A stretch of 64,000 nucleotides of DNA, from contig WQWL01000001.1 in the NCBI GenBank assembly GCA_009785345.1, positions 1 through 64,000 of the forward strand, read 5' to 3'. Shown here one piece after another: positions 1,078-25,096 of this stretch. The notes under the pieces are model-generated. The model searched no databases. It was not told the DNA's origin and was given only the letters and a program-made list of their open reading frames with translations. The translations under genes and the position numbers were made by a program. Positions within the stretch are counted from its first letter, which is position 1; the number at the start of each line of letters is the position of its first letter. Source of the stretch: Oscillospiraceae bacterium (GTDB lineage Bacteria; Bacillota; Clostridia; Oscillospirales; Oscillospiraceae).

Positions 1078-1223
1078 ATGAAAATATGAGTATAACTATC
1101 TGAAATGATCATTTGGTAGAACTCGATGAAAGCGAGCGAGTTGGCGTAGACAGCGGCGCTCCAACTTGTTCATATATGGATATGGTGGCACGTTGTCGGT
1201 CCCGCAACCACCAGAACTGTTAA
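1078..1223 (+). pseudogene. Frameshifted paralogue of the precursor peptide at 1310-1447 (or sequencing indels)
   Basis: Restoring 3 small indels near the 5' end gives MENIEYNYLNDHLVELDESERVGVDSGA-PTCSYMDMVARCRSRNHQNC, matching the downstream leader MENIELNYLNDLLVELDENEQFEVDGGA at 21/28 positions. As written the frame is broken (ATG AAA ATA TGA; in-frame TGA at 1101 for the downstream part). Confidence 0.7.
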
Positions 1224-1309: not shown

Positions 1310-1447
1310 GTGGAAAATATAGAACTTAATTATCTAAATGACCTCTTGGTTGAGCTTGATGAAAATGAGCAATTTGAAGTAGATGGTGGTGCACACTTTA
1401 TGGTATTTACAGTTCTCATGGCAGAACCTCCGCCAACTGGCTGTTAA
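1310..1447 (+). CDS. Putative RiPP precursor peptide with double-glycine leader (45 aa, MENIELNYLNDLLVELDENEQFEVDGGAHFMVFTVLMAEPPPTGC)
   Basis: GTG start 7 nt after AGGAGG; acidic leader ending VDGG/A; short hydrophobic core with PPPTGC end; directly upstream of RRE/radical SAM/C39-ABC genes; below the ORF-track length cut-off. Confidence 0.82.
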   Translation: MENIELNYLNDLLVELDENEQFEVDGGAHFMVFTVLMAEPPPTGC

Positions 1448-1473
1448 CACAAAAGTGAGAGTCTGATAATAGT

Positions 1474-1507
1474 CCAAGAGTGCAAGTGCCCTGCTATGCA
1501 CTCTTGG
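1474..1507 (+). promoter_or_regulatory. RNA hairpin between precursor gene and maturation genes
   Basis: CCAAGAGTGCA (1474-1484) pairs perfectly with TGCACTCTTGG (1497-1507); no U-tract follows. Confidence 0.6.
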
Positions 1508-1537
1508 AAATGATTAAAATTTCAAGGATTTGTATGA

Positions 1538-1867
1538 ATGAAGAATAATAACTACTCCAAAGAAATTGAACAATATACACCATGTCGTATGATGGACATA
1601 TACTTTGACAATGGTAATGAGATAACAACAGGTTCATTCAAATTACAAGGGATAGGTCGTGACATTTGGCTTATGCTAAACGGCAAAAATACGATAAGGT
1701 GCATTGTTGAAAAACTATGCACAAAACTGGTAACTGATGAGAAAGATGCAATATTGAATGAATTGCTTATGGTACTTAGAATGCTAAACAAAAGGAATGC
1801 TATTGTTATAAACTGGGATCCCATATATAAAATGTTGCGTAGCCAGAGGTTGCACTATGAGGAATAA
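1538..1867 (+). CDS. PqqD-like protein (RiPP recognition element)
   Basis: PqqD-fold sequence ...GIGRDIWLMLNGKNTIRCIVEKL...; small protein upstream of a radical SAM gene. Confidence 0.75.
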   Translation: MKNNNYSKEIEQYTPCRMMDIYFDNGNEITTGSFKLQGIGRDIWLMLNGKNTIRCIVEKLCTKLVTDEKDAILNELLMVLRMLNKRNAIVINWDPIYKMLRSQRLHYEE

Positions 1868-3221
1868 CGTAGAGGTTCTTCTTGTGTCTTCTCCAACACC
1901 ATGTCCTGCTATGCACGTACAAAATGCTCATGTGATGCCTCCTTTAGGATTGGGTTATCTGGCTACATGCCTTGAACAAGAAAGATATTCAACTAGAATT
2001 ATTGATATGGCTCTGCGTGGTAAGAATATAGAAACAGTGCTATCTGTATTAAAAAACAGTAAACCTAAAGTAGTAGGTATTTCCTGCACTACCGAAACAT
2101 ATCAAGCCGCTGAACGAATGGCGAAAATTATTAAGTCAGCACACCCTGACTGTGCTATAGTTTTCGGGGGATGCCACACTTCGTTTGAGTATGAAGTGGC
2201 ATTGAAAGAAGACTTTATTGATTATGTTGTATTAAACGAAGGTGAGATAAGCTTTACAAATCTTTGCAATTTCATAATTCGCGGAGTCGGCACTATAGAG
2301 TCTGTGAAAGGAATTGTTTATAAAGAAAATGGCTTGGTAATATGCACTGAACCCGAACCTTTCATTGAAAATTTAGATACATTGCCAATTCCAGACCGTA
2401 GTCTTTTCGAGGACTTATATGAATATGCGCACCCAGCGACAATTTCCACAAGTAGAGGATGTCCAGGCAATTGTATTTTTTGTGCTGCAAGTGTCCTTTC
2501 TGGTGGAAGATACCGTATGCGCTCAGCACAGAACATTGTAGCAGAGTTTGAGTACTTAAAGTCGTTGGGGTTTGATAATGTTATTATTGTTGATGATACC
2601 TTGACAATAAGCATGGCACGACTTGAATCTTTTTTGGACGAACTAATATCAAGAAATCTACAAATGACTTGGTATTGTGAATCAAGGGTAGATACACTAT
2701 CATATAATCTTTTAAGTAAAATGAAAAAAGCTGGGCTTACAACAATACAATTTGGTGTAGAATCAGGAAGCCAAGCAATACTTGATAGTGTTCACAAGGG
2801 CATAACCTTAGAGCAGATTCGCAAAGCGTTTCGATGGTGCAGGGAATTAAACATAACTCCAGTTACAAACCTGATCGTTGGACAACCCTCTGATAGTAGA
2901 GAAACTATCCAAGATACAGTACGTATGGCACATGAACTTATTTCTCTTGGGGCTAGAGTTACATTGTCTGTTTCTACTCCTTTCCCTGGCACGCCAATGT
3001 GGAGAACACCAGAAAAATTTGGGGTGGAAATAATTGATTTTGATTTAGATAATTACAATGTGTCTTGTCCGGTTTTTAACGCGCAGCACTTAACTGCTGC
3101 GGAAATAAGGAATGAATATTATTTAGCCTTGAAAGAAGTGCGTATAGCGCAACGCCAACATAACGTCGAAAATGATGATATGGGTGTACGCAGAGATTTC
3201 TCGTCATTTTGGTTTGATTGA
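1857..3221 (+). CDS. B12-binding-domain radical SAM protein
   Basis: N-terminal cobalamin-binding-like domain (PPLGLGYLATCLEQ...), radical SAM motif SRGCPGNCIFCAAS, GVESGSQAILDSV. Confidence 0.88.
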   Translation: MRNNVEVLLVSSPTPCPAMHVQNAHVMPPLGLGYLATCLEQERYSTRIIDMALRGKNIETVLSVLKNSKPKVVGISCTTETYQAAERMAKIIKSAHPDCAIVFGGCHTSFEYEVALKEDFIDYVVLNEGEISFTNLCNFIIRGVGTIESVKGIVYKENGLVICTEPEPFIENLDTLPIPDRSLFEDLYEYAHPATISTSRGCPGNCIFCAASVLSGGRYRMRSAQNIVAEFEYLKSLGFDNVIIVDDTLTISMARLESFLDELISRNLQMTWYCESRVDTLSYNLLSKMKKAGLTTIQFGVESGSQAILDSVHKGITLEQIRKAFRWCRELNITPVTNLIVGQPSDSRETIQDTVRMAHELISLGARVTLSVSTPFPGTPMWRTPEKFGVEIIDFDLDNYNVSCPVFNAQHLTAAEIRNEYYLALKEVRIAQRQHNVENDDMGVRRDFSSFWFD

Positions 3222-3265
3222 GGTACTATATATTCGAAGCTTTGCGCTATAAATGAGGTTCGCTT

Positions 3266-5083
3266 ATGTCATATTTGGATACTAGGAGGTGTACTAAGGC
3301 TGTGCATCTAAATGAGCGCATATGGTTATCGTTAAAAAATAATCCATCGCAAATTGCCATAGTTTACAATGGTGAAGATTTGACCTACTCTCACTTAGTA
3401 GTATGGATTATGCAGTTTTTGCAAAATATAAATGTGTCGAATAAATCCGAAGACCTATATAGATATATCTTCATCTATGTTAGTTCACCTCTTGAGGGAT
3501 TGATAGCTCATCTAGCAGCACTTCTATACGGTGCTATATGTGTACCACTTAACAAAAATACACCAATTGCCTACTATGTGCTTAATCGCATAGACGATAC
3601 AGCATGCATTATAACAGATGATATTGAGGTAGAACATCTCATAGATATTCCGGTTATATTTGTCCCGAAAGATAGTGAATACTTGCGAACATCGAAAACC
3701 GAATTATGTGATTATGTATTAGAGCGATGCAATGATCACAGTCACTGCATTATGACATCGGGTTCTACCGGAACTCCTAAAGCAGTTCTATTAAATCAAA
3801 AAGCTATCTTAAATCAGGTAGACGCAAAAATCGAGTTACTGAAAATGAACAGCGATAGTAGGGTATGCATTTCGATGAACTCGTCATTTGTTGCGTCAAT
3901 ATGGCAGATTTTTGCAACACTATTTGTCGGAGGTACGCTTGTTGTACTAAATGAATCGGAAAAACATAACCCATACGAGATTTTCAAAAAAGCGGACGAA
4001 AACAGATGCACAGTCTTGTGTGTTGTGCCGTCAGTTCTAAGGGCGTTCCTACTGGCGAACGTAGGTGCTAGAAAGTTAGCGTTAAAAAACTTAACCTCAA
4101 TAGTTCTTACGGGAGAATTATTGCATTCAGACATAGTCAGGCAGTTTTACAATGAATACGATATAACGCTAATAAACGCATATGGGCAAACGGAAACATC
4201 AGATGATACATTTCATTTTGTCATACCAAAAGGCTTTGATTGCAATAAGTGTCCTATTGTTCCAATCGGTTATCCAATCAACGTTATTGATTATTCAATA
4301 GTAGATGAAAACGGCAATGTGGTAGCTGATGGTGAAAGTGGAGAGCTGTGTATTGCTGGGGTGTGCCTGGCAGCGAAATACCTTTGGGATGAAGAGCAAA
4401 CAAAACAGGCGTTTAAATCAACAGGGGATAGCGATTCAAATATAACATTTTTTACCGGAGATATAGTTTCACAATGCGATGACGGTGCTCTTATTTGTCA
4501 CGGCAGAAAAGATAATCAAGTTAAAATTAACGGATATAGGATAGAACCAGAAGCCTTGGAAGCATGTTGCTTATCACTTGAGGGAGTATTTGATGCTCTA
4601 GCATTCAAAATCGAAACACCGACAGGTGAACATATAGTATTACGATATGTTTCAGATGTAGAAAGAAATATAAGTGAAGATGATATAAGAGCGCATTTGG
4701 CTGCAAGGTTACCTTCGTACATGTTACCAAGTGTTATAGAAGAGATAGACAGTATTGCATACAACAATAATGGGAAGAAAATTAGAGATGCCAGTAAATT
4801 AAGCCCACAGGAGCATGATTCTTCAAATCAAGACAAGAATCATGACATCGTGCATGAGGCGATTAAGAAAGTCATACATGAGATTGCCGGAAGCAATGTG
4901 CAGGAAGATATTTATTTTACTAACTTGAACTCTCTTGAATATATTACACTGCTTGTGGAGTTGGAAGAAGCTTTGGACATAAAGTTCTGTGACGAAGAGT
5001 TGAGAGTGGGTACATTTTCATCGTTAGACGAGCTCATAAACTCTATTACAGAGTTAACCAAAGACAAGGAGCAAACAGCATGA
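3266..5083 (+). CDS. AMP-binding adenylation domain with C-terminal carrier domain
   Basis: A3 TSGSTGTPKAV, A5 NAYGQTETSDD, A7/A8 TGDIVSQ...GRKDNQVKINGYRIE, A10 NNNGKKIRD; carrier-like C-terminus NLNSLEYITLLVELEE. Confidence 0.88.
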   Translation: MSYLDTRRCTKAVHLNERIWLSLKNNPSQIAIVYNGEDLTYSHLVVWIMQFLQNINVSNKSEDLYRYIFIYVSSPLEGLIAHLAALLYGAICVPLNKNTPIAYYVLNRIDDTACIITDDIEVEHLIDIPVIFVPKDSEYLRTSKTELCDYVLERCNDHSHCIMTSGSTGTPKAVLLNQKAILNQVDAKIELLKMNSDSRVCISMNSSFVASIWQIFATLFVGGTLVVLNESEKHNPYEIFKKADENRCTVLCVVPSVLRAFLLANVGARKLALKNLTSIVLTGELLHSDIVRQFYNEYDITLINAYGQTETSDDTFHFVIPKGFDCNKCPIVPIGYPINVIDYSIVDENGNVVADGESGELCIAGVCLAAKYLWDEEQTKQAFKSTGDSDSNITFFTGDIVSQCDDGALICHGRKDNQVKINGYRIEPEALEACCLSLEGVFDALAFKIETPTGEHIVLRYVSDVERNISEDDIRAHLAARLPSYMLPSVIEEIDSIAYNNNGKKIRDASKLSPQEHDSSNQDKNHDIVHEAIKKVIHEIAGSNVQEDIYFTNLNSLEYITLLVELEEALDIKFCDEELRVGTFSSLDELINSITELTKDKEQTA

Positions 5084-5433
5084 TAGAAGTGTTAATGTCA
5101 AAAATCCATAGAGCAACTGTTACAGAAGCTGACTTGAATTATGTGGGTTCGATAACTATCTCCAAGGAAATGACAGACAAAGCCGGAATTTTTGAATATC
5201 AAAAAGTGACGGTTGCAAATGTTAATAGTGGAAACCGCTTTGATACATACGTAATAGTCACAGAGGAGCCGGGTGTGATATGTCTAAACGGAGCAACTGC
5301 ACGTCTATGTTGTGTGGGCGATTTATTAATTATAATGGCATATGAGACTATAGATAAGAAAAATGCTAAAGACCACAAGCCCGTAGTCGTCCATGTAGAT
5401 GCCGAGAACCAAGTGTTAAGTGAGTGCAGGTGA
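5080..5433 (+). CDS. panD: PanD-like aspartate 1-decarboxylase
   Basis: KIHRATVTEADLNYVGSITI (Gly-Ser processing site), NRFDTYVIV, LNGATARL, GDLLIIMAY, all characteristic of PanD. Confidence 0.85.
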   Translation: MIEVLMSKIHRATVTEADLNYVGSITISKEMTDKAGIFEYQKVTVANVNSGNRFDTYVIVTEEPGVICLNGATARLCCVGDLLIIMAYETIDKKNAKDHKPVVVHVDAENQVLSECR

Positions 5434-5696
5434 AGTATCTTATGGACAAACAATTCATAATAGATGCATTTCGGGATTCAATTTATGAGAATGATTCCCT
5501 GTGTAAATCAATATATGGTGACTCTTCCATGCTAGAGGACATTGAACAAACTGTATTATCGATATCATCGTTGGATTTTGTTGACTTATTGATTGATGTG
5601 GAAAGCCGTCTAGGCTTTGAGTTTGCAGATGAATGTTTGTCCAAAGGAAAAACAAAAATCGGTGAACTTGTTGAGATTATCGAAAGTATGTATTGA
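5424..5696 (+). CDS. Acyl/peptidyl carrier protein
   Basis: 90 aa; SISSLDFVDLLIDVESRLGFEF carrier motif with candidate phosphopantetheine Ser. Confidence 0.8.
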   Translation: MQVKYLMDKQFIIDAFRDSIYENDSLCKSIYGDSSMLEDIEQTVLSISSLDFVDLLIDVESRLGFEFADECLSKGKTKIGELVEIIESMY

Positions 5697-5717
5697 GGGA
5701 AATTGGTTTAGAAGATT

Positions 5718-7127
5718 ATGAACAATATAACTCACATTTTTAATGTTGACGAGAACCGATATGCTCTTGATTTTCGCAACCTGTTTTTTTGTCTGTTAGA
5801 CGATGAGACAGAGCAAGCTCTTGAGGTTGTCATGTCAGACAAATCACTAGATGAAACCACACTTGACTGCGCACAAATAATGGACGCACTTATAAAAAGT
5901 GGATATTTCATCTCGAAATATCCTGATAGTCTGGTTCCTAATTATGAGTCTGACATATTGAATATCTCATTTGCACCTGTACAAGACTGTAACTTTGCTT
6001 GCAAATATTGTTATGCCAAAGGTGGCGAGGGAACATCGCATTATAAAATGGCTTATGACGAGTCTAAGATAGACAAAATGCTGACCCACATATACAAAGA
6101 AAAATATGCTAAATATCAAAGTTACAAATTTGATTTTGTGAGTGGTGGCGAGCCACTTCTGGACTTTCCGATTCTTGAGTATTTCTTGGCGAAGATTCGT
6201 GATTTAGATAATCAACTGAACAAAAAGACGACAGTTCTAGTAGTTACCAATGGAACATTATTTACTGAAGAAATAATACGAAGTCTTGACAAACATGATG
6301 TGTTTATGGGTATTAGCGTCGATGGACCGGAAGAAGTTCACAATCATCACAGGGTATATAAGGACGGCGGCGATACATACCAAGATGTCGTAAACGGCAT
6401 TACATTATTGCACTCTATGCCGGAAATTTCTTCAAAACTGAAAGATGCTTGGGCTATGGCAGTAATAACTCGTGAAACCGGAAGTTTAGTTGACGTCATG
6501 GAAACGTGCATCAGTCTGGATTTTAAGCGTATGCAAATGCAACTGATTAGAGAAACACAGGAGCACCATTTGGCGTTTACCAAGGCTGATTTACCAGAAT
6601 TAAAGGCCCAATATAAAATTTTATTCAATCATATTATTAACCATGCCAAAGACGGTGATTTGAGCCGCTTGAAAATGATTGCCAATGATAATGATTCTTT
6701 TGGTAAGTTTCTGGGAAGATTATTATTACGTACTCCGGTCTATTTTAGATGTTTTGCTGGAAAGAATAAAATTGCTATTGCTGCGAGCGGTGAAATTTAT
6801 CCATGCGACAGCTTTTGTGGGCTAAGCGATTACACAATGAGTCATATCGATAATCCTGAACTTAATGACCTTGCCGTTATAAATATGTTTGAAAATGCAC
6901 ATGTTCAAAATAGGTTGCAGTGTAGTAAATGTTGGGCACGGAATATTTGTGGTGGTGACTGTTATTACAACAGCTATATCGTAAATGGAAATATTCATGA
7001 GCCAGACCCAATAAAATGTTCAATGAATAGATTCTTCATTGAACATACTGTTGATTTGTTAATAAAGCTGCAAGAGATAAATCCGGAATATCTTTCATAT
7101 TTGGCAAAAATGTTGAGCTTGACGTAA
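5718..7127 (+). CDS. Radical SAM/SPASM peptide maturase
   Basis: CNFACKYCYAKGG radical SAM motif; C-terminal CSKCWARNICGGDCYYNS SPASM-type cysteines; N-terminal RRE-like region. Confidence 0.88.
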   Translation: MNNITHIFNVDENRYALDFRNLFFCLLDDETEQALEVVMSDKSLDETTLDCAQIMDALIKSGYFISKYPDSLVPNYESDILNISFAPVQDCNFACKYCYAKGGEGTSHYKMAYDESKIDKMLTHIYKEKYAKYQSYKFDFVSGGEPLLDFPILEYFLAKIRDLDNQLNKKTTVLVVTNGTLFTEEIIRSLDKHDVFMGISVDGPEEVHNHHRVYKDGGDTYQDVVNGITLLHSMPEISSKLKDAWAMAVITRETGSLVDVMETCISLDFKRMQMQLIRETQEHHLAFTKADLPELKAQYKILFNHIINHAKDGDLSRLKMIANDNDSFGKFLGRLLLRTPVYFRCFAGKNKIAIAASGEIYPCDSFCGLSDYTMSHIDNPELNDLAVINMFENAHVQNRLQCSKCWARNICGGDCYYNSYIVNGNIHEPDPIKCSMNRFFIEHTVDLLIKLQEINPEYLSYLAKMLSLT

Positions 7128-7160
7128 AGTATAAATGCTTGTTTTAGAGGTGAGTGGACG

Positions 7161-8561
7161 TTGTTGGTAGAAGCAAAGCAAGTTAATACAATTCCCTACA
7201 GAATTTGTGATTATGTCCATATTCAGCAAATTGGGGAGTTCACTTTTTACATCAATTTAGTCAACAGTGGGCATTACGTACTTAGCAACGATATGCACGA
7301 ATGCATAACATCAGGGAGCATTGAGTTTGGTGATGGATTGGTACAATATGCACATTCTACAATCAATAAGTTAGTTACATTAAAGTATATTGAGCCGGAC
7401 TTAGAAAATATCTGCATTGGAAAGGCATCCATATATATTCCGAGAAAGAAATGGAAGCCTGGTGGGGAAATTAATCACGAAAACTTAGCAAAGCTACTGG
7501 AAAAGGAATACCATAACCCTATATTCAAGATTGAACAGGTTGATGATAGTAGAGATGTTAGTGTCTACGAGTATTTGTGTGGGCGCAACTCGTTGAGAGT
7601 AGCTTTGCAAGGATATGGCATTAAATCTCCATTACTCTGGATGAGAGCCGGATTGTTTGTGGATGACGTGGATTTTACTAACACAGGAGAGTTTACCACC
7701 AACTTTTCCCGTTCTATGATAGATGCAGCGAATATTCCGATATTAGGCGATTTGAAAAGCAGTTTAGATTGGGACATTATTGATGCACATTTGGAAAAAC
7801 GCTTGCCTGTGCTTGTACATGTAGACATATATTATATGCCTTATGAGCGAAATATATTCTTTCATAACAGGCATGGTGCGCATGTAATTGTGTTGTTAGA
7901 AAAGTGTGATGATGCATACTTGATTGTTGATTGGGCTCATCCGAGCTATTACTACGGTGAAATTACAAAAGACGAACTCACGATAGCACGGACATCAGCT
8001 AATGAGAAAGATCAAGTAAGTGTATTCAATGGTTATCCAATTTCTGCTACATACCAACGACTTTATTTGAATAGATTTTCACGAAATCTTAATATTTCAC
8101 AGCACGTGATGGCGAATTTATATCAATCGGCAAAAAGTATGTTAAGCGATAACGGCATCATATCACTTCTTGAAAGAGCACGCGCAACTACCCCGGAATG
8201 GATAAAAGTTCCTGGACATGATAGTTACGGTAATGCGATTGAATCGTTTTTCTTCTTAGATTTGGAGCTGAAATTTCTCTGCCTATACTATGAGGAAATG
8301 TTGACGGCTGATTCATGCAATGTTTTTTATCCGGAAATTTTACTGGAAAAAGTCATTGGAATCAGGAACTGCGTAGATTTGCTTAAAAATAAGTTGATTC
8401 TTGCCATGAGAAGAAACAAGTCAATTGAGGAAGAGGCTTGGACGAAATTATTATGTGATATAAAAATGCATACGGTGGAGTATTGCGAAACTGTCCTTAA
8501 ACTTTTAAAAGCAATGAAGAGCGCGAAGCATAAGGAGTCAAAGGAGAGTACGCGGAATTGA
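7161..8561 (+). CDS. BtrH-N/C39-like papain-fold protein (putative acyl/aminoacyl transferase)
   Basis: Cys in YEYLCGRNSLRVAL; HNRHGAHVIVLLEKCDDAYLIVDW resembles the His-Asp half of C39/BtrH-N folds. Confidence 0.55.
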   Translation: MLVEAKQVNTIPYRICDYVHIQQIGEFTFYINLVNSGHYVLSNDMHECITSGSIEFGDGLVQYAHSTINKLVTLKYIEPDLENICIGKASIYIPRKKWKPGGEINHENLAKLLEKEYHNPIFKIEQVDDSRDVSVYEYLCGRNSLRVALQGYGIKSPLLWMRAGLFVDDVDFTNTGEFTTNFSRSMIDAANIPILGDLKSSLDWDIIDAHLEKRLPVLVHVDIYYMPYERNIFFHNRHGAHVIVLLEKCDDAYLIVDWAHPSYYYGEITKDELTIARTSANEKDQVSVFNGYPISATYQRLYLNRFSRNLNISQHVMANLYQSAKSMLSDNGIISLLERARATTPEWIKVPGHDSYGNAIESFFFLDLELKFLCLYYEEMLTADSCNVFYPEILLEKVIGIRNCVDLLKNKLILAMRRNKSIEEEAWTKLLCDIKMHTVEYCETVLKLLKAMKSAKHKESKESTRN

Positions 8562-9532
8562 AGAAAATATTAGATGTAAAACAACCTTTAATCAGCTGCT
8601 ATACAGCGTATGGAACTCTCTTTTCGATACTACCGAAGCAGCTGGATTCATGGATATACAGTAATTTCATACAATTGGTTTACAATAAACTTTGGGGAAC
8701 ATACACATTTGAAGGTCATAGATTCGTACTCAAGGATTGCCCAGGTATTGTTTTTCATACATCACCACGGGATAAAATCATGAATGACGAAAAAACGTTA
8801 ATCGATATGATAAAAAGTGCAATTGATGCTGGTGAGTATGTTTACCTTTTTGTTGATAAGTATTATATATCTGCAGATAAATTATACCATGGAAAAAAGC
8901 ATTTCGAACATGAAATCTTAGTATATGGGTATGATCAAGATAATGACCTCATGTTCGTTGCTGATAATTTTGCGGATGGCAAGTTTGCTTTTTCTTCCTG
9001 TCCGTCCGGTGACATAGATAAAGCGTTTATGCGTTTGAAAACCAATAATGAATACGCCAAACATTTTGGTACACTTATTGTGCGTCCTGATGTCAATTAT
9101 TCTTTGGACATAGAGAAGATAAAGCATGATATGAATGCTTTTTTAAGCTCACAAAAATCATACTACATGCGTAAAGAACAAGATATGATATTCGGGGTTA
9201 AAATCTTCGAAAATCTAAAAAAGCAAATAATTTGCTGCGCCGCTTATGGTATGCCACTGGATGTAAGAGCATTTCATATGATTTATGAACACTTGCTACT
9301 AATGGAAGAAAGAGTCCGATATATGGTAAGGGAAAATTATATGACAGACGTATCAGAACTTTGTGAATTTGTACGAGATACAAAAGAGTCCGCATTCTTA
9401 TTGCGAAACTGCGTAATAAAATACAATGTGAGACGAAAGGAAAACATGTTCGAGAGCATTCTGAGTAAATTATGTCAACTGAAAGATGATGAGATCAAAA
9501 TGTTTGAAACAGTACTAGATAAAATTTTATGA
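8558..9532 (+). CDS. Second BtrH-N/C39-like papain-fold protein
   Basis: Cys in KQPLISCYTAYGTLFSIL; HFEHEILVYGYDQDNDLMFVADNF; overlaps the previous gene by 4 nt. Confidence 0.55.
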   Translation: MKKILDVKQPLISCYTAYGTLFSILPKQLDSWIYSNFIQLVYNKLWGTYTFEGHRFVLKDCPGIVFHTSPRDKIMNDEKTLIDMIKSAIDAGEYVYLFVDKYYISADKLYHGKKHFEHEILVYGYDQDNDLMFVADNFADGKFAFSSCPSGDIDKAFMRLKTNNEYAKHFGTLIVRPDVNYSLDIEKIKHDMNAFLSSQKSYYMRKEQDMIFGVKIFENLKKQIICCAAYGMPLDVRAFHMIYEHLLLMEERVRYMVRENYMTDVSELCEFVRDTKESAFLLRNCVIKYNVRRKENMFESILSKLCQLKDDEIKMFETVLDKIL

Positions 9533-11742
9533 GAGTAAATCGTTATAAATGTGTGCGTCAGTATGACGCAACTGATTGTGGAGTCGCGTGTCTTGCAACA
9601 ATCGCACAGCACTATGGACTGAAGATTCCGGTAACACGAATACGAGAAATTGCCGGAACTGACAAGCAGGGAACAAATATTTATGGCATGATAAAAGCGG
9701 CGGAGTTGTTAGGCTTTAATGCAAAAGGTGTAAAGCCATCTGTCGGTGAGGGTGACGGCAACATACAGTCCAAACGTGAAGTGTTGTCATCGCCGTTCTC
9801 ATTGCCTGCCATTGCACATACACTGGTTGACGGCTCCATGTCTCATTACGTTGTAATCCATAAAATTACAAAAAAACAAATAATAATCGCAGACCCGGCA
9901 AAGGGCCTGAAAAAAGTCACTATTGATGAATTCATGAGTGAGTGGACTGGTGTGCTGGTTTTGCTTGTTCCGACTCATGAATTTGAAAAGGGCGATCATA
10001 CTAAGGGTATCTACGCTCAATTTTTTAAACTGATAATTCCACAGCGTGGTCTCTTAATTAATGTTTTCTTTGTATCATTACTTTTTACAGTGCTCGGCAT
10101 TGGAGCTGCATTTTATTTCAGGATAATGATGGATGATATATTGCCAAACATGCTCGAACGCAGCTTGACGGTGGTTTCTATTGGAGTTATTGCACTATAT
10201 GTTTTTCAGCATATGCTAAGTGCGTTCCGCAATCACATGCTCTTGCATATGAGTCAAAAACTAGATGTAAACTTGATACTTGGCTACTATCATCATGTTT
10301 TGGAACTGCCAATGAGCTTTTTTGGTACAAGACGAGTTGGAGAAATTATAACTCGCTTTATGGATGCTTCAAAAATACGTGAAGCAATAACCGGTGCTTC
10401 GCTTACAATCATGATTGATACAATTATGGCAGCCGTTGGTGGAATTATCCTATATATGCAAAGTCCCCAAATGTTTGTTGTTGCAGTTGCTATCGTTTTT
10501 CTTTATGGCATTATAGTGTTTTCATTCAATAAACCATTGCGTGATATAAATGAAAAGTATATGGAGGAAAACGCACAGTTGATGTCATATTTGGTTGAAT
10601 CATTAAACGGCATTGAAACTGTCAAAGCCTTCAACTCAGAGCGTTCGACTAAGATTGAAACAGAGAAAAGGTTTGTAAGATTCCTTCGTGCTGTATTTAA
10701 ATTTGGTTGGCTTCAAAATATGTCCGGCTCAATGAGTGGTCTCGTAGCTGCTGTTGGTGGCGTGGTGATATTGTGGGTAGGCGCATTAAGCGTTATGCGA
10801 GGAGATATGACAATTGGTGGGTTGTTGACATTTAATGCACTACTTGTTTATTTTCTTGATCCAGTAAGAAACTTGATTGACTTGCAACCGAAAATGCAAA
10901 CAGCAATTGTTGCATCAAACAGGCTCGGCGAAATATTGGATTTAGAGTTAGAAAAAACAGAAAAGGAAAATAAAAAAATTGCGCTCAAGTCATTGCTGAA
11001 GCCAATTAAATTTGAAAATATAGATTTTCGCTATAGTACGCGACGCCTGGTACTTCAGGATATCAGCTTGAGTATTGCGTCAGGAGAAAAAATTGCGCTT
11101 GTAGGAGAAAGTGGCTCCGGCAAGACAACACTTGCAAAACTATTATTAAACTTTTATCCGTGGGAAAAGGGAGATATTTCCATAGGTGAATTTAGTATTG
11201 AAGATTTGAATATTGAAGCTCTTAGAGAAAAAATAGCGTATATTTCGCAAGATGTGTTTCTATTCTCCGGTACAATTTATGAAAACTTGACTCTTGGTAT
11301 GGATTATCCTGATATGGAAGAAGTTGTTCGTGTCGCTTCGATGACACAAGCACATGACTTTATCAGTGATTTTCCTCTTCGCTATGAAACACAACTTGAA
11401 GAAAATGGTGCAAATTTGTCCGGTGGACAAAAGCAACGTCTTGCAATAACTCGGGCATTACTCAAGAAACCGGATATCTTAATAATGGATGAGGCGACAA
11501 GCAATCTTGACAGTATAACTGAAAAGGCAATTAGTCGTATGATTGATGAGCAGACTTCCGGAATAACCACAATTATCATTGCGCATAGATTAAGTACGAT
11601 AATGCGTTGTGACAAAATATATCTGATGGACGAAGGAAAAATAGAAGAAGCTGGTAGCCATATGGAACTCATGGATGCAAAAGGGCGGTATTATGAGTTG
11701 TGGCGAGAGCAAATTCCCGATTTGGATGGAGTTACAGGATGA
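9529..11742 (+). CDS. Peptidase C39 domain-containing ABC transporter (peptide processing and export)
   Basis: N-terminal C39 QYDATDCGVACLATIAQHYG...HYVVIHKI...IADPAKG; TM domain; Walker A GESGSGKTT, LSGGQKQR, Walker B. Confidence 0.95.
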   Translation: MRVNRYKCVRQYDATDCGVACLATIAQHYGLKIPVTRIREIAGTDKQGTNIYGMIKAAELLGFNAKGVKPSVGEGDGNIQSKREVLSSPFSLPAIAHTLVDGSMSHYVVIHKITKKQIIIADPAKGLKKVTIDEFMSEWTGVLVLLVPTHEFEKGDHTKGIYAQFFKLIIPQRGLLINVFFVSLLFTVLGIGAAFYFRIMMDDILPNMLERSLTVVSIGVIALYVFQHMLSAFRNHMLLHMSQKLDVNLILGYYHHVLELPMSFFGTRRVGEIITRFMDASKIREAITGASLTIMIDTIMAAVGGIILYMQSPQMFVVAVAIVFLYGIIVFSFNKPLRDINEKYMEENAQLMSYLVESLNGIETVKAFNSERSTKIETEKRFVRFLRAVFKFGWLQNMSGSMSGLVAAVGGVVILWVGALSVMRGDMTIGGLLTFNALLVYFLDPVRNLIDLQPKMQTAIVASNRLGEILDLELEKTEKENKKIALKSLLKPIKFENIDFRYSTRRLVLQDISLSIASGEKIALVGESGSGKTTLAKLLLNFYPWEKGDISIGEFSIEDLNIEALREKIAYISQDVFLFSGTIYENLTLGMDYPDMEEVVRVASMTQAHDFISDFPLRYETQLEENGANLSGGQKQRLAITRALLKKPDILIMDEATSNLDSITEKAISRMIDEQTSGITTIIIAHRLSTIMRCDKIYLMDEGKIEEAGSHMELMDAKGRYYELWREQIPDLDGVTG

Positions 11743-13295
11743 GAACAGAAATTGTTGATTTCGAAGACTTGACAGATTCCAGGGAACTACTGGAAGCAAA
11801 ACCGCCTAAGTTTTTTATGATGTTTTCATATATTCTGATAACGCTAATAACGGTGGCTTTCATTTGGGCATACTTTGGAAGAATTGATATTTATGTTAGC
11901 ACACAGGGAATTGTTCGTCCTACTGAGCAAGTTTCAACTGTAATTAACCCGAATAGTGGAATAATAAATGCCGTTTATTTCGAGAACGGTGAGCACGTGA
12001 ATGCTGGAGATGTTTTATTCACGCTGGAGATGGGAGATTTTGATTTTATTATCATTAACTATGAGTCCGTTCTTGCAGATATTGAAGTTGATTTGGAAAA
12101 TTTGCGACGATACAGAGAGAGTATTGTGCTTGAAGAAAACTTATTTGCCCACACAGAAAACCTGTATTATACCTTGGTTGAGCGATATTTAACAGAAATT
12201 CAAGGTATGCAGAGTCAAATGACGGAACAATTCGCACAGACTGCCAATCAAAGGGTTGACACAAATTTGTCTCTTGAGAGCATAAACTTGGCTATACGGC
12301 AACGAGAAAGCGAGATTACGAATTTAGAACGCTATATTGAGTCAGTCCGAACGCAAACAAATTTATTTATATATGGCTCACATTATTTTCATCTCAGATT
12401 TTTAGAGTTTGAGCGCAGACGTAATGAAGCGATAACTCGTATTAATGAAGCATATCGTGACTACAATATAGCTCTGGAAAATTATAATGCAACTCGGGAA
12501 GATTATTATATAGAGGAAGTCGATGAAGCAGAACTAATAGCAGCGCGGACAGCGTGGAATAGTGCAAAGCAGAGCCTTGAACATCTGGTGAGCACAGAGA
12601 TTCTGACTTCGGAGCAGCGCATAACGAGTATTCATCAGGAATTAGCAGAGCTTAATATTTCAAGAAGGCGCACTCAAAATGCGGCTCAAGCATATAATAC
12701 ACAAAATAATGAAAGTTGGGATATTTTATTCAGTCAAACCCAATTACAGCTTATAACAGAGATAGATTCACAAATCACCACACAAGAAAGTAGGCGTGCC
12801 AATATAGAACGAGAATTAAGTCGTACAATAGAAGAACTTGAAATGAGTGAGCTTGATTTTATCGTTACCGCGCCTATAGATGGATATTTGAATTTATTGC
12901 AAAGTGTAACTCCCGGCGAGTTTGTCCCAAGTGGCAGCGAAATTGCAACAATTATTCCCGAAAGTCAAGATGTTTTGCGCATAGAACTTGCGATATCGAA
13001 TAGAGATATTGCAAGTGTATATGTTGGACAATCTATCAATTTCAACGTACTGGCACTACCGTACCGGGACTATGGACGTGTATCTGGTGTTGTGCACAGT
13101 ATCGGTGCAGATGCCAGACTTAATCAATTTACTGGCGAAATGTACTTTTTAGTTGAGGCTCATATTGCGAACGAGCCTGTGGCTGATCACAGAGGATATT
13201 TAGCGGAAATCCAGGTAGGAATGCTTGTTGAGGGACAGATGATTACTGATAATCAACGTATTCTTACATGGTTTATGAATTTGATTTGGGGGTAG
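11739..13295 (+). CDS. HlyD-family secretion periplasmic-adaptor-type protein
   Basis: Start ATG 11739 overlaps the ABC stop (ATGA); single TM, coiled coil, FIVTAPIDGYLNLLQSVTPGEFVPSGSEIATIIP. Confidence 0.9.
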   Translation: MRTEIVDFEDLTDSRELLEAKPPKFFMMFSYILITLITVAFIWAYFGRIDIYVSTQGIVRPTEQVSTVINPNSGIINAVYFENGEHVNAGDVLFTLEMGDFDFIIINYESVLADIEVDLENLRRYRESIVLEENLFAHTENLYYTLVERYLTEIQGMQSQMTEQFAQTANQRVDTNLSLESINLAIRQRESEITNLERYIESVRTQTNLFIYGSHYFHLRFLEFERRRNEAITRINEAYRDYNIALENYNATREDYYIEEVDEAELIAARTAWNSAKQSLEHLVSTEILTSEQRITSIHQELAELNISRRRTQNAAQAYNTQNNESWDILFSQTQLQLITEIDSQITTQESRRANIERELSRTIEELEMSELDFIVTAPIDGYLNLLQSVTPGEFVPSGSEIATIIPESQDVLRIELAISNRDIASVYVGQSINFNVLALPYRDYGRVSGVVHSIGADARLNQFTGEMYFLVEAHIANEPVADHRGYLAEIQVGMLVEGQMITDNQRILTWFMNLIWG

Positions 13296-13314
13296 AAAGA
13301 GAAGGTGCATCTAT

Positions 13315-14433
13315 ATGACTGAACAACCTGGAATCAGCATTGTAATCGCCAGCAAAGGTCGCGTTAAGCTGCTGGGCGAGCTACTGGAAAGTATACAAAT
13401 TGCGCGGAATACCTATGATGGTTCAAGTGAAGTGCTTGTAATTGATGACAGCAAACCGCAGGATGCCGAACGTATTCGTGCTCATTGTGAAAAGTATGAC
13501 ACTCACACGATTAATTTCGGACCATCCGTTTCAGGCAAGCGCAATTTAGGGGCACGCGAAGCGCAGTATGAACTGCTGCTTTTTTTGGACTCAGACTGTA
13601 TCGCCACATCACAACTACTTAACGAACATGTGAAGCCCTATGCAAATTCTGAGGTAGGCGGTGTAGCAGGACCACTGGAGTTTGTAGGCACGGACACTTG
13701 GTTCTGGAAGGCGGTTGAGAAATCACCTTTTGTAACTTCATTCGGACTTCCAGCCTTGTTGGACGAAGTTCCGTGGGCACCTACTGCAAATTTTTCCATT
13801 CGCAAAGGGCTTTTCACAGAATTGGGTGGTTTTGATGAGAGCTTTCCAAATAAACCCGGTGGAGAAGATGTAGACTTATGTCTGCGTATGACTAAACAAG
13901 GTTGGTGTATTGCCTGTAGCAAAGAAGGGCTTGTTTATCACAGCAAATCAACATGGATACCGGTAAAGGATATGTTCCGGCGTTTGTGGCACTACGGCAA
14001 CGCTGACTGTTATTTAACGGAACGGCACGCGGATAATAGTATGGCAACTGTACCCAGACGTCTTTTGATTTACGTTGCTATGCTTATCCTACTATCGGTT
14101 TGTGCAATTTTTAGTAGTTGGTGGCTGTTGGTGGCATTCCCTCTTTGGCTGTTGCTGGATATATCGCTAACGTCCATATTGATCAATAAATTTGCGACCA
14201 ATAAACGTACTAATTTTGCTCAACAGGTTGCTGTGCAACTAATGATGCTTACCAATGAAGCGGGGTATCTTTACCGCTGCCTCCGTAAGAAAAAACCTCA
14301 ATTTTGGTTTCTCCAACTTGTCCATTTTGATGGACAAATGGAGGACATTCAGCGCAATAGCACCATCAATATGTGGTCGCTACTCATAGTCATACTACTG
14401 ATATTGGCAACAACTGTTTTGATAATAATTTAA
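13315..14433 (+). CDS. Family 2 glycosyltransferase with C-terminal TM segments
   Basis: SIVIASKGRVKLLGELLESI, LLFLDSDC, NFSIRKGLFTELGGFDESFPNKPGGEDVDLCLRM. Confidence 0.88.
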   Translation: MTEQPGISIVIASKGRVKLLGELLESIQIARNTYDGSSEVLVIDDSKPQDAERIRAHCEKYDTHTINFGPSVSGKRNLGAREAQYELLLFLDSDCIATSQLLNEHVKPYANSEVGGVAGPLEFVGTDTWFWKAVEKSPFVTSFGLPALLDEVPWAPTANFSIRKGLFTELGGFDESFPNKPGGEDVDLCLRMTKQGWCIACSKEGLVYHSKSTWIPVKDMFRRLWHYGNADCYLTERHADNSMATVPRRLLIYVAMLILLSVCAIFSSWWLLVAFPLWLLLDISLTSILINKFATNKRTNFAQQVAVQLMMLTNEAGYLYRCLRKKKPQFWFLQLVHFDGQMEDIQRNSTINMWSLLIVILLILATTVLIII

Positions 14434-16182: not shown

Positions 16183-19100
16183 ATGATTATGCGAAATAAA
16201 GCAAGAAAAATACTCGTGGTACTACTTGCGGTAGCAATGATGATTTCCGTTATTGTGCCGGGTGCAGCAGCTTACCTGGATATTCAAAACGAGCCTCTTG
16301 ATTCATCTGTTATCCATGAAGTTGTTTTTGCCGCGAGTTTTTACGCAGCCCACGACGGATTTGAACCACGTGGCGCTGGTGTAACATTTACCAACGAAAA
16401 TATCAGTCAGACCCCTGGGGATCAATCACTATTGGTCTCTAACCGTAATTCGGTACTCCACGGAGCACAGGTCAATTTGACAGATATCATCATTCCTAAT
16501 GTTGAGTATGAATTCTCAATGTGGGTGCAGTCTGTTGCCGGATCACAAAACATGAGACTCGGTTTCCAAATTGGATACACAAGTACTATATTTGCAGGTA
16601 GCACTCAAACTGTCACTGACGATGGCTGGGTACAGCTTGTTGGAAGGGCTACATTCCCATCCACAGCTCATGCTATCGTTCTATTTGTAGACTCTGGCGC
16701 ACCAACTGCGTCATTTGTTATTGATACAGCGACATTGGCGCGAGTAGGTCCGTTACCGGAAATCGTGCCACCTGTCTCCGAAGGTCAGGAACTGCAAATT
16801 TTCCTTGATCAAACACGTCAACAGATTGACGGCTTTGTTCTTTCCGGTGCATTCAGGCAAATCGATCATCTTTTGAATGGTTTTGCAGATCGCCCTGATT
16901 TACAGGAAGAAATCCTTGATTTGGTATTCGGTCATCATACAGGTGTATATCCTGAAGGTCACAGCAGAGCCGGTGAGCCGGTTGATCCTGCTGCTAAAGG
17001 TATTGGTCTGTCAATCTGGCGTAACCAAATCAGTGACAAAGCTGAATTATGGAACTACCTATGGCGTCAACCACCAAACGCAGGTCCTGGACAAATGGCA
17101 GGCGGCGGCGGCGGTCAAAGTTGGGGTCGCTGGTTCGATACAGCAGCATTCAGCTTTAGACCTTTTGCTCCCGATGATCCAGATCATTTCTACGGTCTGA
17201 ATCTTCCTCGCAACGCACCTCTTCTAGATGACGTCAGCTATCGCTGGTGGATGGATGCTCGCGATACTGCAGCAGTAAACTGGCATCCGGATGTTCACCC
17301 AGACCCATGGGATAGAACACATATTCCAACAATTAATTATCCTCTCGGACGCCCAAGATTAACAGTACCTGGTACTGTACATCGTCTTGATGACTTCATT
17401 GGAATCATCGATACTGATGTCACCTACATGGATGGTCGTCCATTCCCAGGTTGGATGGTTCGTGAAGGTGGACCATATGGAAACGCAGCATTTGATAGAT
17501 TTGATTGGCCGGAAGCTCCAGGAAATCAAGATATCGTTGCTCGTAATGGTCGCTCTCCTGTAGATCGCGGTCAGGTTTGGGCATCAAGGATTGCCATGGC
17601 CTATGCTGAGGCTCGCGGCGAAGAAATGAAAATCATGGCAGCTGGCTGGAGTGGTCCGGCATGGCTGAAAAGTACCGGTCGTGTTAACGGCGGTCATATT
17701 GTCAACGCCGAATGGGCACTTAGAGACTATGCTCACTTCCTCGCTGACTACATCCAAGGTTGGGAAACTATATATGGAGTGCCAATCTGGGGACTTTCTC
17801 TGTCCAACGAGCCAGAACAAGCCAACCATGTTTACTCAAAGAGTGGCTGGGTAACTAATACAGTTGCTAGACCACCGGGAGCAGTTGATTTTGGTATCCG
17901 TTATCCACAAGGAACAATAGGACCAGCACCTGCGCCACTTCCAACTTGGCAGTCAACATCTCCAAGCTATATGCCATTTGCACGCGATGTACTGGGTCCA
18001 GTACTTGCGGAGCGTGGATTACGCAATGTGTTGCCTGATGGCACAGTAGAAGGTGTACGTTTCCAAATGGGCGACAGCCAAAGTTATGGTTCCAGCCCAC
18101 CAATCTATCAAAGATTCTGGGGCAATAGTGCAGAGCAGTTCATAGATGACTATGTGTTCCACACATACAGTTGGCAATCAATCGGTGGCTCTAATGCCGA
18201 CACAGCAGCACTCAGAGAATGGAAAGTGCGTGCACAAATGAATAATCGTGGCATGATTATGAGTGAAATTTCCACAATGAGTGGACAAAATGCTACTAAC
18301 ATATTTGATTTCCAGAGAAATGCACTCAGAAACCAAAACGGCACGGCATCCAGAAGTGACATGGGTAGTGCCATAGCATGGGCGCAGTACTGGAACAGAC
18401 AACTATCTATCATGGAAATTAGCGGAACAGGTCAATGGTGGGCAGTAGGCTTTAAGAAGCCAGAACAAGACTGGCCGATGGCTATACATCCAGGTGACAG
18501 AAGTCTTGAAAATCTCATCTACATCACAAATGATGCTAGAGGACAATCTGCAGGTCCGGCTGCTCCATCAATATCACTAGGTGGTCTTGAAGGCGCAACA
18601 GCAAACCACCGTGGCATAGGAGCACGTCCTGATGAGATTCTTGCATATCAACATGCAGGTCCAGAAGGCGGTTTCTACACAGAACAAACCTTTGACTACA
18701 GAGTACACAAAGTATTTTGGGCATTGGGTCACTTCAGTAAGTTTGTAAGACCCGGCTGGTATCGCGTGAACGTCAATCAAGATGTCGTTAACGAAGGTGC
18801 AGCATTCCCCAACAACCTCAATCTAATGACATCAGCTTATAGAAGTCCAGAAGCTGACGAAGATGGCTACTATGACTTCTCAGTTATCGTTATCAACGGT
18901 ACACGTCTGGATCAGACTATTGACATCAACTTCCCGGGATACATTGTCGAGAGCATGGAACGTTGGGAAACTATCGAAGACGTACTTTGCACAAGCGTTC
19001 TTGATGTACCCCATGGCACACTTCTATCAAGTGCCGGTGCTAACAACACAATTACAAATGCGACAGGTCTATACCGCGAAAGTTTTGTACGCGGCTGGAC

Positions 19101-20475: not shown

Positions 20476-20482
20476 TCAAGCC

Positions 20483-20520
20483 GAAGTGAGTTCCTTATCA
20501 GGAACTCACTTCTTTATCCT
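20483..20520 (+). terminator. Intrinsic terminator-like hairpin after the GH30 gene
   Basis: GAAGTGAGTTCCT-TATC-AGGAACTCACTTC, 13-bp perfect stem followed by TTTATCCTGTTTTC. Confidence 0.7.
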
Positions 20521-20550
20521 GTTTTCTATTTATATATAATTGGAGGTTAC

Positions 20551-24891: not shown

Positions 24892-24927
24892 TTGAACGAA
24901 CATTTCGTGTAAAAGTCCGCGACACAA

Positions 24928-25033
24928 ACCACCCCGCCCGCCTGCGGCAGGCACCCATCCGATGGAAGGGGAATTGGCTAGAATCGTTCATTATTTCCCT
25001 CCTTGGATGGGTGGCACGAAGTGGCGGGGTGGT
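24928..25033. repeat. REP/MITE-like large palindrome between GH74 and GH10 genes
   Basis: ACCACCCCGCC/GGCGGGGTGGT and CACCCATCC/GGATGGGTG paired arms, plus nested GCCTGC/GCAGGC; GC-rich in an AT-rich context. Confidence 0.75.
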
Positions 25034-25096
25034 CAAAAGTGGAGAACCGCAACTCCCGAACAAAAGCGGAAAATTAATCATTTTTGGAGGACTCGC

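Follow-up and report, generated by a model that had tools for sequence, protein, structure and literature searches.

A small, previously uncalled gene of an Oscillospiraceae bacterium and its proposed place in a radical SAM and carrier-protein peptide pathway

The operon at 1310–13295 and its relatives

The stretch of DNA analyzed here (the window) comprises 64,000 nucleotides of an Oscillospiraceae bacterium of a termite-gut type (assembly GCA_009785345.1, contig WQWL01000001.1, positions 1 to 64,000 of the forward strand). Near its beginning, an operon of one strand (1310–13295, +) starts with the gene of a 45-aa putative precursor peptide (1310–1447). This is followed, in order, by genes for a PqqD-like RiPP recognition element (RRE), a B12-binding radical SAM enzyme, an adenylation domain with a C-terminal carrier domain (A-PCP), the aspartate 1-decarboxylase PanD, a stand-alone carrier protein (ACP), a radical SAM/SPASM enzyme, two BtrH-like proteins (BtrH1 and BtrH2), a C39-ABC transporter, and an HlyD-family protein. 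Once past a 90-nt spacer holding a hairpin, the gaps between genes range from −43 to 44 nt. The initial annotation had placed the peptide gene first in its operon, which holds for 1310–13295; further upstream on the same strand is the gene of a TraB/PrgY/GumN-family lipoprotein (46–1011; PF01963), kept in synteny at 8742–9758 of the related cluster L035 and possibly involved in immunity, self-protection, or peptide processing. That annotation was also incomplete, as it lacked the carrier-protein/adenylation/PanD/BtrH module, which is what makes the cluster unusual, as well as a degenerate second precursor and a conserved RNA hairpin after the gene.

The PqqD-like protein (1538–1867, 109 aa) matches PF05402 with 26.2 bits (cutoff 23.4), and together with the two radical SAM enzymes it satisfies the RiPP criterion of a leader-recognition element and modifying enzymes near the precursor. 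The B12-binding enzyme (1857–3221; PF02310, PF04055) has no equivalog, its top NCBIfam models (BchE, HpnJ, and rSAM_ocin_1) each scoring far under cutoff. The A-PCP protein (3266–5083) was recognized by PF00501, TIGR01733, and alignment to solved A domains; PanD (5080–5433) by TIGR00223 (132.5 bits, cutoff 106); and the stand-alone acyl or aminoacyl carrier (5424–5696) by a weak ACP model match; its serine site is ISSLDFVDL, the serine being conserved in the orthologues found. The SPASM protein (5718–7127; PF04055) is a PapB-like peptide maturase. BtrH1 (7161–8561; Cys140/His241/Asp257) and BtrH2 (8558–9532; Cys14/His118/Asp136) score 28.7 and 27.5 bits, respectively, with the BtrH_N model (cutoff 29.7). 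The peptide cleavage and export transporter (9529–11742; PF03412, PF00664, PF00005) exceeds the TIGR01193 cutoff (667.9 vs. 523.85 bits), and its C39 motifs read intact (QYDATDCG, HYVVIHK, and ADP), meeting the Cys/His/Asp criterion. Its membrane fusion partner, the HlyD-family protein (11700–13295; PF13437), remains under the TIGR01843 cutoff with 175.4 bits. This gene content and the intact catalytic motifs are shown by computation.

Two related clusters were found. L035 (G405:C63, WQSX01000063.1), from the Oscillospiraceae MAG Co191P3bin39 of the same genus, was reached via its SPASM radical SAM enzyme (70% identity), and L037 (WRAQ01000006.1), from the Lachnospiraceae MAG Lab288P1bin41, by alignment of the BtrH1 protein. 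The Co191 and Lab288 metagenomes come from the guts of two termites, Cornitermes sp. and Labiotermes labralis, respectively (PMC7024585). A search of genome contigs with the single BtrH1 sequence gave no match, and a two-row alignment returned L036 (the same as L035) and L037; no BtrH1 turned up among 395 further sampled genomes of the order, among 400 of the family (a sample lacking G405), or in plasmid records or viral contigs. The precursor, A-PCP, ACP, SPASM enzyme (69–70% identity), BtrH1, and C39-ABC transporter are common to the window, L035, and L037. L035 has the gene order of the window and keeps the RRE, the B12 radical SAM enzyme (64% identity), and BtrH2 (63%); its contig stops within C39, and HlyD is present in the window and L037. 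The L037 cluster is rearranged; the RRE, the B12 radical SAM enzyme, and PanD were not seen in the stretch read. It has in addition a second ACP and a third BtrH2-like protein, and further genes code for a solute-binding lipoprotein and for a LoaP antiterminator that scores above cutoff.

The solute-binding lipoprotein of L037 (SBP_bac_8, L037:6995–8281) lies between the precursor and an ACP and could serve in immunity or re-uptake. Upstream of both clusters are genes for cyclic lactone autoinducers of the AgrD type (TIGR04223, above cutoff), at L035:9758–9889 (−) and L037:1331–1483 (−), and L037 also encodes an AgrB-like protein (669–1244) and an apparent response regulator and sensor kinase (1719–3729). 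These agr-type genes suggest quorum control of L035 and L037; the window contig begins too late to show such genes.

BtrH-like genes lie in a biosynthetic neighborhood with an adenylation protein in all four of the further loci L048–L051, with an ACP in at least L048, L050, and L051. L048 (G890:C1:358000–377500) encodes an ACP, three radical SAM proteins, one of them sharing 36% identity with the SPASM enzyme of the window, a BtrH, and an A domain (5057–13745), in addition to three tandem peptides of 34–40 aa (CCNTFTGGCCNTYSTTGC type), all with a C-terminal Gly-Cys, for which NCBIfam gave no match. L048 is likely a separate, undescribed RiPP system, and it supports the tie between the SPASM/BtrH/A/ACP enzyme set and peptides. 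It is possible that the C-terminal Gly-Cys, seen in the window, L035, and L048 and absent from L037, matters. The sample remains small, at three clusters, or four if L048 is counted, and is drawn in part from incomplete MAGs.

The precursor gene and its flanking features

The initial annotation had claimed a 45-aa peptide at 1310–1447, with a GTG start and a given sequence before it, and this was confirmed. The open reading frame starts with GTG and stops with TAA, and its product is MENIELNYLNDLLVELDENEQFEVDGGAHFMVFTVLMAEPPPTGC; a Shine-Dalgarno-like sequence, AAAGGAGGGATATCT, abuts the start. Residues 1–27 form the leader (ENIELNYLND...EVDGG) and residues 28–45 the core, AHFMVFTVLMAEPPPTGC, an 18-residue peptide if the predicted cut falls after the GG. 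The core has one Cys, at its C terminus, and one Glu. The gene meets the criterion for GG-leader peptides, namely a short ORF with a GG (GA/GS) site behind a leader of 15–30 residues. Of the 1,310 start/stop pairs that delimit readings of 30–80 codons on either strand of the window, this one alone passed a filter that required a Shine-Dalgarno-like site, a GG within residues 16–36, and a hydrophobic residue at both −4 and −12.

Homologous small genes are present in both related clusters. The L035 precursor, MELNYLNDILVELEEDDQLKLDGGGFWAFAALMLNPPPESGTLGC (8522–8659, −), also has 45 aa and a ribosome-binding site, is 61% identical to that of the window, and shares its C-terminal GC despite a 4-residue indel. 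The L037 precursor, MSLNYLNDLFAEVEAKEAHDIDGGCTVYYWPSGLKEVIVCKNACYFRPPLAAKMFNLYNQKYVFLNKTD (6659–6868, +), has 69 aa and only the leader (LNYLND...DGG) in common with the window; its longer, unrelated core ends in KTD, without the GC. The DGG, residues 25–27 in the window, is found in all three, and the leader positions −4 (V/L/I in window/L035/L037), −12 (L/L/V), and −15 (L/L/F) are hydrophobic throughout, with position −7 (Q/Q/A) not being so. When a profile built from the window and L035 precursors was run against 299 related genomes, it matched in the window genome and G405 only.

Between the window and L035, dN is 0.25 and dS 1.47 (dN/dS ∼0.17), identical bases number 29, 35, and 21 out of 41 at codon positions 1, 2, and 3, respectively, and a Fisher test of synonymous versus nonsynonymous change gives p = 3e-5. 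The remaining two frames have no comparable codon-position or dN/dS pattern in this comparison. By part, dN/dS is 0.12 for the leader and 0.22 for the core. Because of the dN/dS values, the codon-position identities, and the Fisher test, we consider the frame to be selected at the protein level, with stronger constraint on the leader; this meets the RiPP criterion of a conserved leader and a more variable core under coding constraint. Such a strict leader fits enzymes that would read it, as inferred from the sequence comparison. The precursor ORF and its conservation are thus shown by computation, and 1310–1447 is a real small gene that had not been called before.

Its product is very likely the precursor for the C39 exporter of the operon, even if neither translation nor cleavage has been shown by experiment. 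The initial annotation had likewise proposed a GG-leader precursor cut and exported by this C39-ABC protein, to be refuted if no homologous small ORFs existed at related loci. The homologues in L035 and L037 leave that condition unfulfilled, and together with the purifying selection, the conserved DGG and leader pattern, and the intact C39 domain they support the proposal, translation and cleavage being inferred. In the GG site, the hydrophobic −4, −12, and −15 positions, the acidic leader, and the C39-ABC (TIGR01193) and HlyD genes of its operon, the precursor resembles the double-glycine peptides of C39-ABC systems (class II bacteriocins, competence peptides, and many RiPPs). It differs from them in the Gln or Ala at −7, in a leader without a curated family match, and in the radical SAM and carrier enzymes around it.

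A degenerate second copy of the precursor lies upstream, at 1080–1223 (+). It matches the precursor profile (E 4.7e-4), and its DNA alignment scores 70, against a maximum of 40 among 2,000 shuffles. The leader reads ENMSITI up to an internal TGA and NDHLVELDESERVGVDSG after it, and is further broken by two offsetting indels; the core, APTCSYMDMVARCRSRNHQNC, is unrelated to that of the live precursor and has a C-terminal NC. One leader with differing cores is the usual layout of RiPP precursors.

Just after the precursor stop, an RNA hairpin with a 12-bp stem and a CCCTG loop is predicted at 1473–1508 (+). CCCTG-loop hairpins occupy the same position in L035 (8480–8509, −) and L037 (6891–6919), with stems of 11–12 bp across the three clusters; the stem sequences are unrelated and the loop is common. 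In each of these sources it is the sole CCCTG-loop hairpin with a stem of ≥8 bp on the coding strand. Folding z-scores against shuffles are −6.0 for the window, −4.2 for L037, and just −1.5 for L035, and an Rfam search of L035 and L037 gave no match. The hairpin could be an attenuator, a stabilizer, or a processing site, and it may hold the precursor mRNA above the enzyme mRNA, which is only a guess. It is not an intrinsic terminator, as the T run is absent and the terminator scan was negative. Neither do we claim it as a LoaP site: the characterized LoaP hairpin is of the UNCG type (PMC12691694), and LoaP was seen in L037 only.

Putative modifying and carrier-dependent enzymes

The SPASM enzyme has PapB and the nif11-like peptide maturase as its best models, and with the RRE and the Cys and Glu of the core, the cluster is reminiscent of PapB ranthipeptides, SCIFF, and Nif11-type systems. 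The equivalog scores are, however, far under cutoff (PapB 184.9 vs. 340 bits; SCIFF 163.8 vs. 425 bits), the core has a single Cys instead of repeated CX3D/E cross-link motifs, and the window adds a B12 radical SAM enzyme and an aminoacyl-carrier module. With neither the cutoff nor the motif criterion for membership met, filing the product as a ranthipeptide was rejected.

PanD carries an intact Gly-Ser self-cleavage site (G23–S24) as well as K8, R53, and Y57, so that the criterion of a curated model match plus a self-processing site is met. It is the sole PanD of its genome. The gene panC (pantoate-beta-alanine ligase) was not found in the genomes G000, G405, and G763, which are MAGs, so its absence is not absolute; the same search was positive in nine of the 14 control genomes. 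Because of this difference, PanD has no evident role in the CoA pathway, and its assignment as a gene of that pathway was rejected. In L037, a glutamate decarboxylase (GAD; 452 bits, cutoff 380) takes the place of PanD. The two enzymes are unrelated, and both yield an omega-amino acid. Both the orphan status of PanD and the decarboxylase swap are shown by computation.

A domains for alpha-amino acids follow an amine-binding Asp235 rule (PMC11355689). In the A domain of the window, Val209 is at the position of the alpha-amino-binding Asp, and Asp313 and Asp314 are in the pocket; this Asp-Asp pair, at positions equal to 330/331, is conserved in L035 and L037, where A-PCP is kept. Based on the orphan PanD, the GAD swap, and the Val and Asp-Asp pocket, we infer that the A domain activates beta-alanine in the window and GABA in L037. 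No pattern proves the activated amino acid: the mapping to PheA numbering is a reading of aligned motifs, and no specificity predictor stands behind the inference. Likeness can be seen to Ebony and FlvN/VinN, whose A domains select beta-alanine or an Asp-type beta-amino acid and load it onto a carrier (PMC10531068, PMC11284099). Unlike what is proposed for the window, Ebony conjugates biogenic amines, and FlvN/VinN prime polyketide synthases.

BtrH itself acts as an ACP:aminoglycoside acyltransferase (PMC10318531). The BtrH1 orthologue of L037 scores 30.5 bits, above the BtrH_N cutoff that the window proteins narrowly miss. The residues Cys140, His241, and Asp257 of BtrH1 are invariant across seven relatives, meeting the catalytic-triad criterion, and the His-Asp spacing of 16 equals that of the CtaG variants H128A/D144N in the PDB. 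By sequence, the BtrH1 profile matches AziU3 (E 7e-11). A first structural model from three sequences was too poor (pLDDT 46); a later model of the catalytic part, with the seven relatives, is moderate (mean pLDDT 57.9, with the triad region mostly at 70–90). With this model, Foldseek returned AziU3 (E 3e-7), CtaG of Ruminiclostridium cellulolyticum (4e-5), and CcbD, including its PCP-bound form (∼2e-3 to 3e-3), from the PDB, at TM-scores of about 0.25. The criterion of a fold match to solved members of the BtrH/CtaG/CcbD type is thereby met on a moderate model, the match itself being shown by computation. BtrH1 is predicted by this model to be a papain-like, carrier-protein-dependent condensing enzyme; its reaction is inferred. 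BtrH1 and BtrH2 have no significant similarity beyond the motif, and we rejected the idea that they are recent paralogues. Profile comparison with the PqqD-like protein gave no support for an RRE domain in BtrH1 or the SPASM protein.

Other known pathways also come close to this module. The butirosin side-chain pathway (BtrI carrier, BtrJ ligase, BtrK decarboxylase, BtrH transferase) similarly combines a decarboxylase, a ligase, a carrier, and a papain-like transferase around a GABA-type unit, but its acceptor is an aminoglycoside, and that presumed for the window is a ribosomal peptide. Butirosin also differs from the window cluster in its ligase type and in decarboxylation on the carrier. 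The closthioamide (CtaG) and celesticetin (CcbD) pathways share papain-like, carrier-dependent, amide-forming enzymes with a fold match to BtrH1, but their products are nonribosomal, without a precursor peptide, a leader, or radical SAM maturases. CtaG acts in closthioamide assembly, and closthioamide contains beta-alanine units.

Proposed pathway and alternative explanations

Our proposal is that the PqqD-like RRE would hold the acidic leader (LNYLND...DGG) and present the core, which would then be modified by the SPASM radical SAM enzyme and, in the window, also by the B12 radical SAM enzyme. This radical chemistry is inferred. Its outcome can only be guessed at: a C-methyl group, or a Cys45–Glu39 thioether, the latter because PapB links Cys to Asp or Glu (PMC9413430), even though the SPASM enzyme fails PapB membership. 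Meanwhile, PanD would convert aspartate to beta-alanine, and A-PCP would activate it and load the fused carrier, the free carrier, or both. From there, BtrH1 and/or BtrH2 would move the beta-alanyl group, or a short chain, to the peptide. In the L037 variant, glutamate decarboxylase would replace PanD, and GABA would be the unit. At the end, the C39 domain would cut after Gly27, and the ABC/HlyD exporter would release the product, perhaps an antibacterial or signaling peptide. The order of the steps and any bioactivity are, like the reactions on the peptide, inferred. So is the acceptor group: the core has no Lys, and the candidates after the GG cut are the new N terminus, Thr34, Thr43, His29, and Cys45, the N terminus being awkward because C39 cleavage is normally coupled to export.

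Our confidence differs between the parts of this proposal. That the product is a radical SAM-modified RiPP is likely, modification of the core being inferred. The pathway as a whole (radical SAM modification and carrier-dependent aminoacylation of a GG-leader RiPP, then cleavage and export by C39-ABC) is favored by a narrow margin, and against it stands the fact that no product, transcript, or reaction is known. Whether the beta-alanyl or GABA unit ends up on the peptide could go either way. The bolder reading is that of a new class of RiPPs: a papain-like transferase of the BtrH/CtaG type would take carrier-bound beta-alanine or GABA, made on site by PanD or glutamate decarboxylase, and attach it by N-, O-, or S-acylation to a GG-leader peptide that radical SAM enzymes have modified. 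The balance tips slightly against this reading.

The main rival explanation, which is possible and still open, is that the operon makes two products: a peptide modified by radical SAM enzymes only and exported, and a separate closthioamide-type beta-alanine molecule made by PanD, A-PCP, ACP, and BtrH. One of the folds nearest to BtrH1 is that of CtaG, which comes from a closthioamide producer, and in L049–L051 BtrH-like proteins accompany A/ACP proteins where no GG peptide is obvious. On the other hand, the carrier module is interleaved and tightly packed with the peptide genes, and the precursor, SPASM enzyme, A-PCP, ACP, BtrH1, and C39-ABC remain together in L037 despite divergence and rearrangement. 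Peptides also lie beside the SPASM/BtrH/A/ACP set in L048, and the sole exporter of the operon is of the peptide type. It is unlikely that the core is an ordinary bacteriocin or pheromone, exported essentially unmodified while the tailoring enzymes play a minor role or serve another use. A GG leader and a C39-ABC transporter would suffice if the peptide were a class II bacteriocin or a signal, and agrD genes are near two of the clusters; against this, ten contiguous tailoring and transport genes with two radical SAM enzymes, an RRE, and a single 45-aa precursor are typical of a RiPP cluster, and the leader is more strictly conserved than the core, as would be the case for a leader that tailoring enzymes recognize.

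Still less probable, and in our view very unlikely, is that the peptide serves as a disposable scaffold, the product being built on the C-terminal Gly-Cys and then released as in the pearlin pathways, which use a peptide aminoacyl-tRNA ligase. The PQQ and mycofactocin pathways offer a parallel, since they consume their precursor peptide. In favor of a scaffold, the GC is kept between the window and L035 despite the indel, the three unrelated L048 peptides end in GC, and the degenerate copy ends in NC; however, the L037 precursor ends in KTD, the operon has no recognized peptide aminoacyl-tRNA ligase and no protease besides C39, and the GG cleavage and exporter gene speaks for an exported peptide. 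A chance ORF without a product is all but excluded. Short ORFs are plentiful, with 144 of ≥30 aa reaching into the first 16 kb, but this one has homologues at the same place, a dN/dS of 0.17, the sole pass of the filter, and a leader kept in three clusters.

Each of the three elements, GG leaders, RiPPs made by radical SAM enzymes, and BtrH pathways, is already known, and RiPPs with carrier-protein-derived building blocks are rare. In the open-access literature searched, we found no description of the three combined with a dedicated supply of an omega-amino acid, and no RiPP on which a BtrH-type enzyme installs such an amino acid. If the proposed pathway is true, it would provide a genetically encoded scaffold for beta-alanine or GABA attachment and a peptide substrate for the large, uncharacterized BtrH_N family. 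An exchange of decarboxylase would then change the attached unit, and a testable antimicrobial or signal pathway would be at hand in termite-gut Firmicutes. The bolder reading, if true, would mean that a single molecule unites the ribosomal synthesis of a peptide with thiotemplated amide formation.

Beyond the operon, the window encodes three consecutive, very large secreted proteins at 16183–27853 (1430, 1446, and 963 aa), which look like glycoside hydrolases. They have in common a C-terminal stretch of ∼110 residues with many NNG repeats (NLGIF..HS.FVVP..TTL.VATTLNI.R.AELII.GTV..LEGGRINNQG), which may be a surface-binding module with a beta-solenoid fold.
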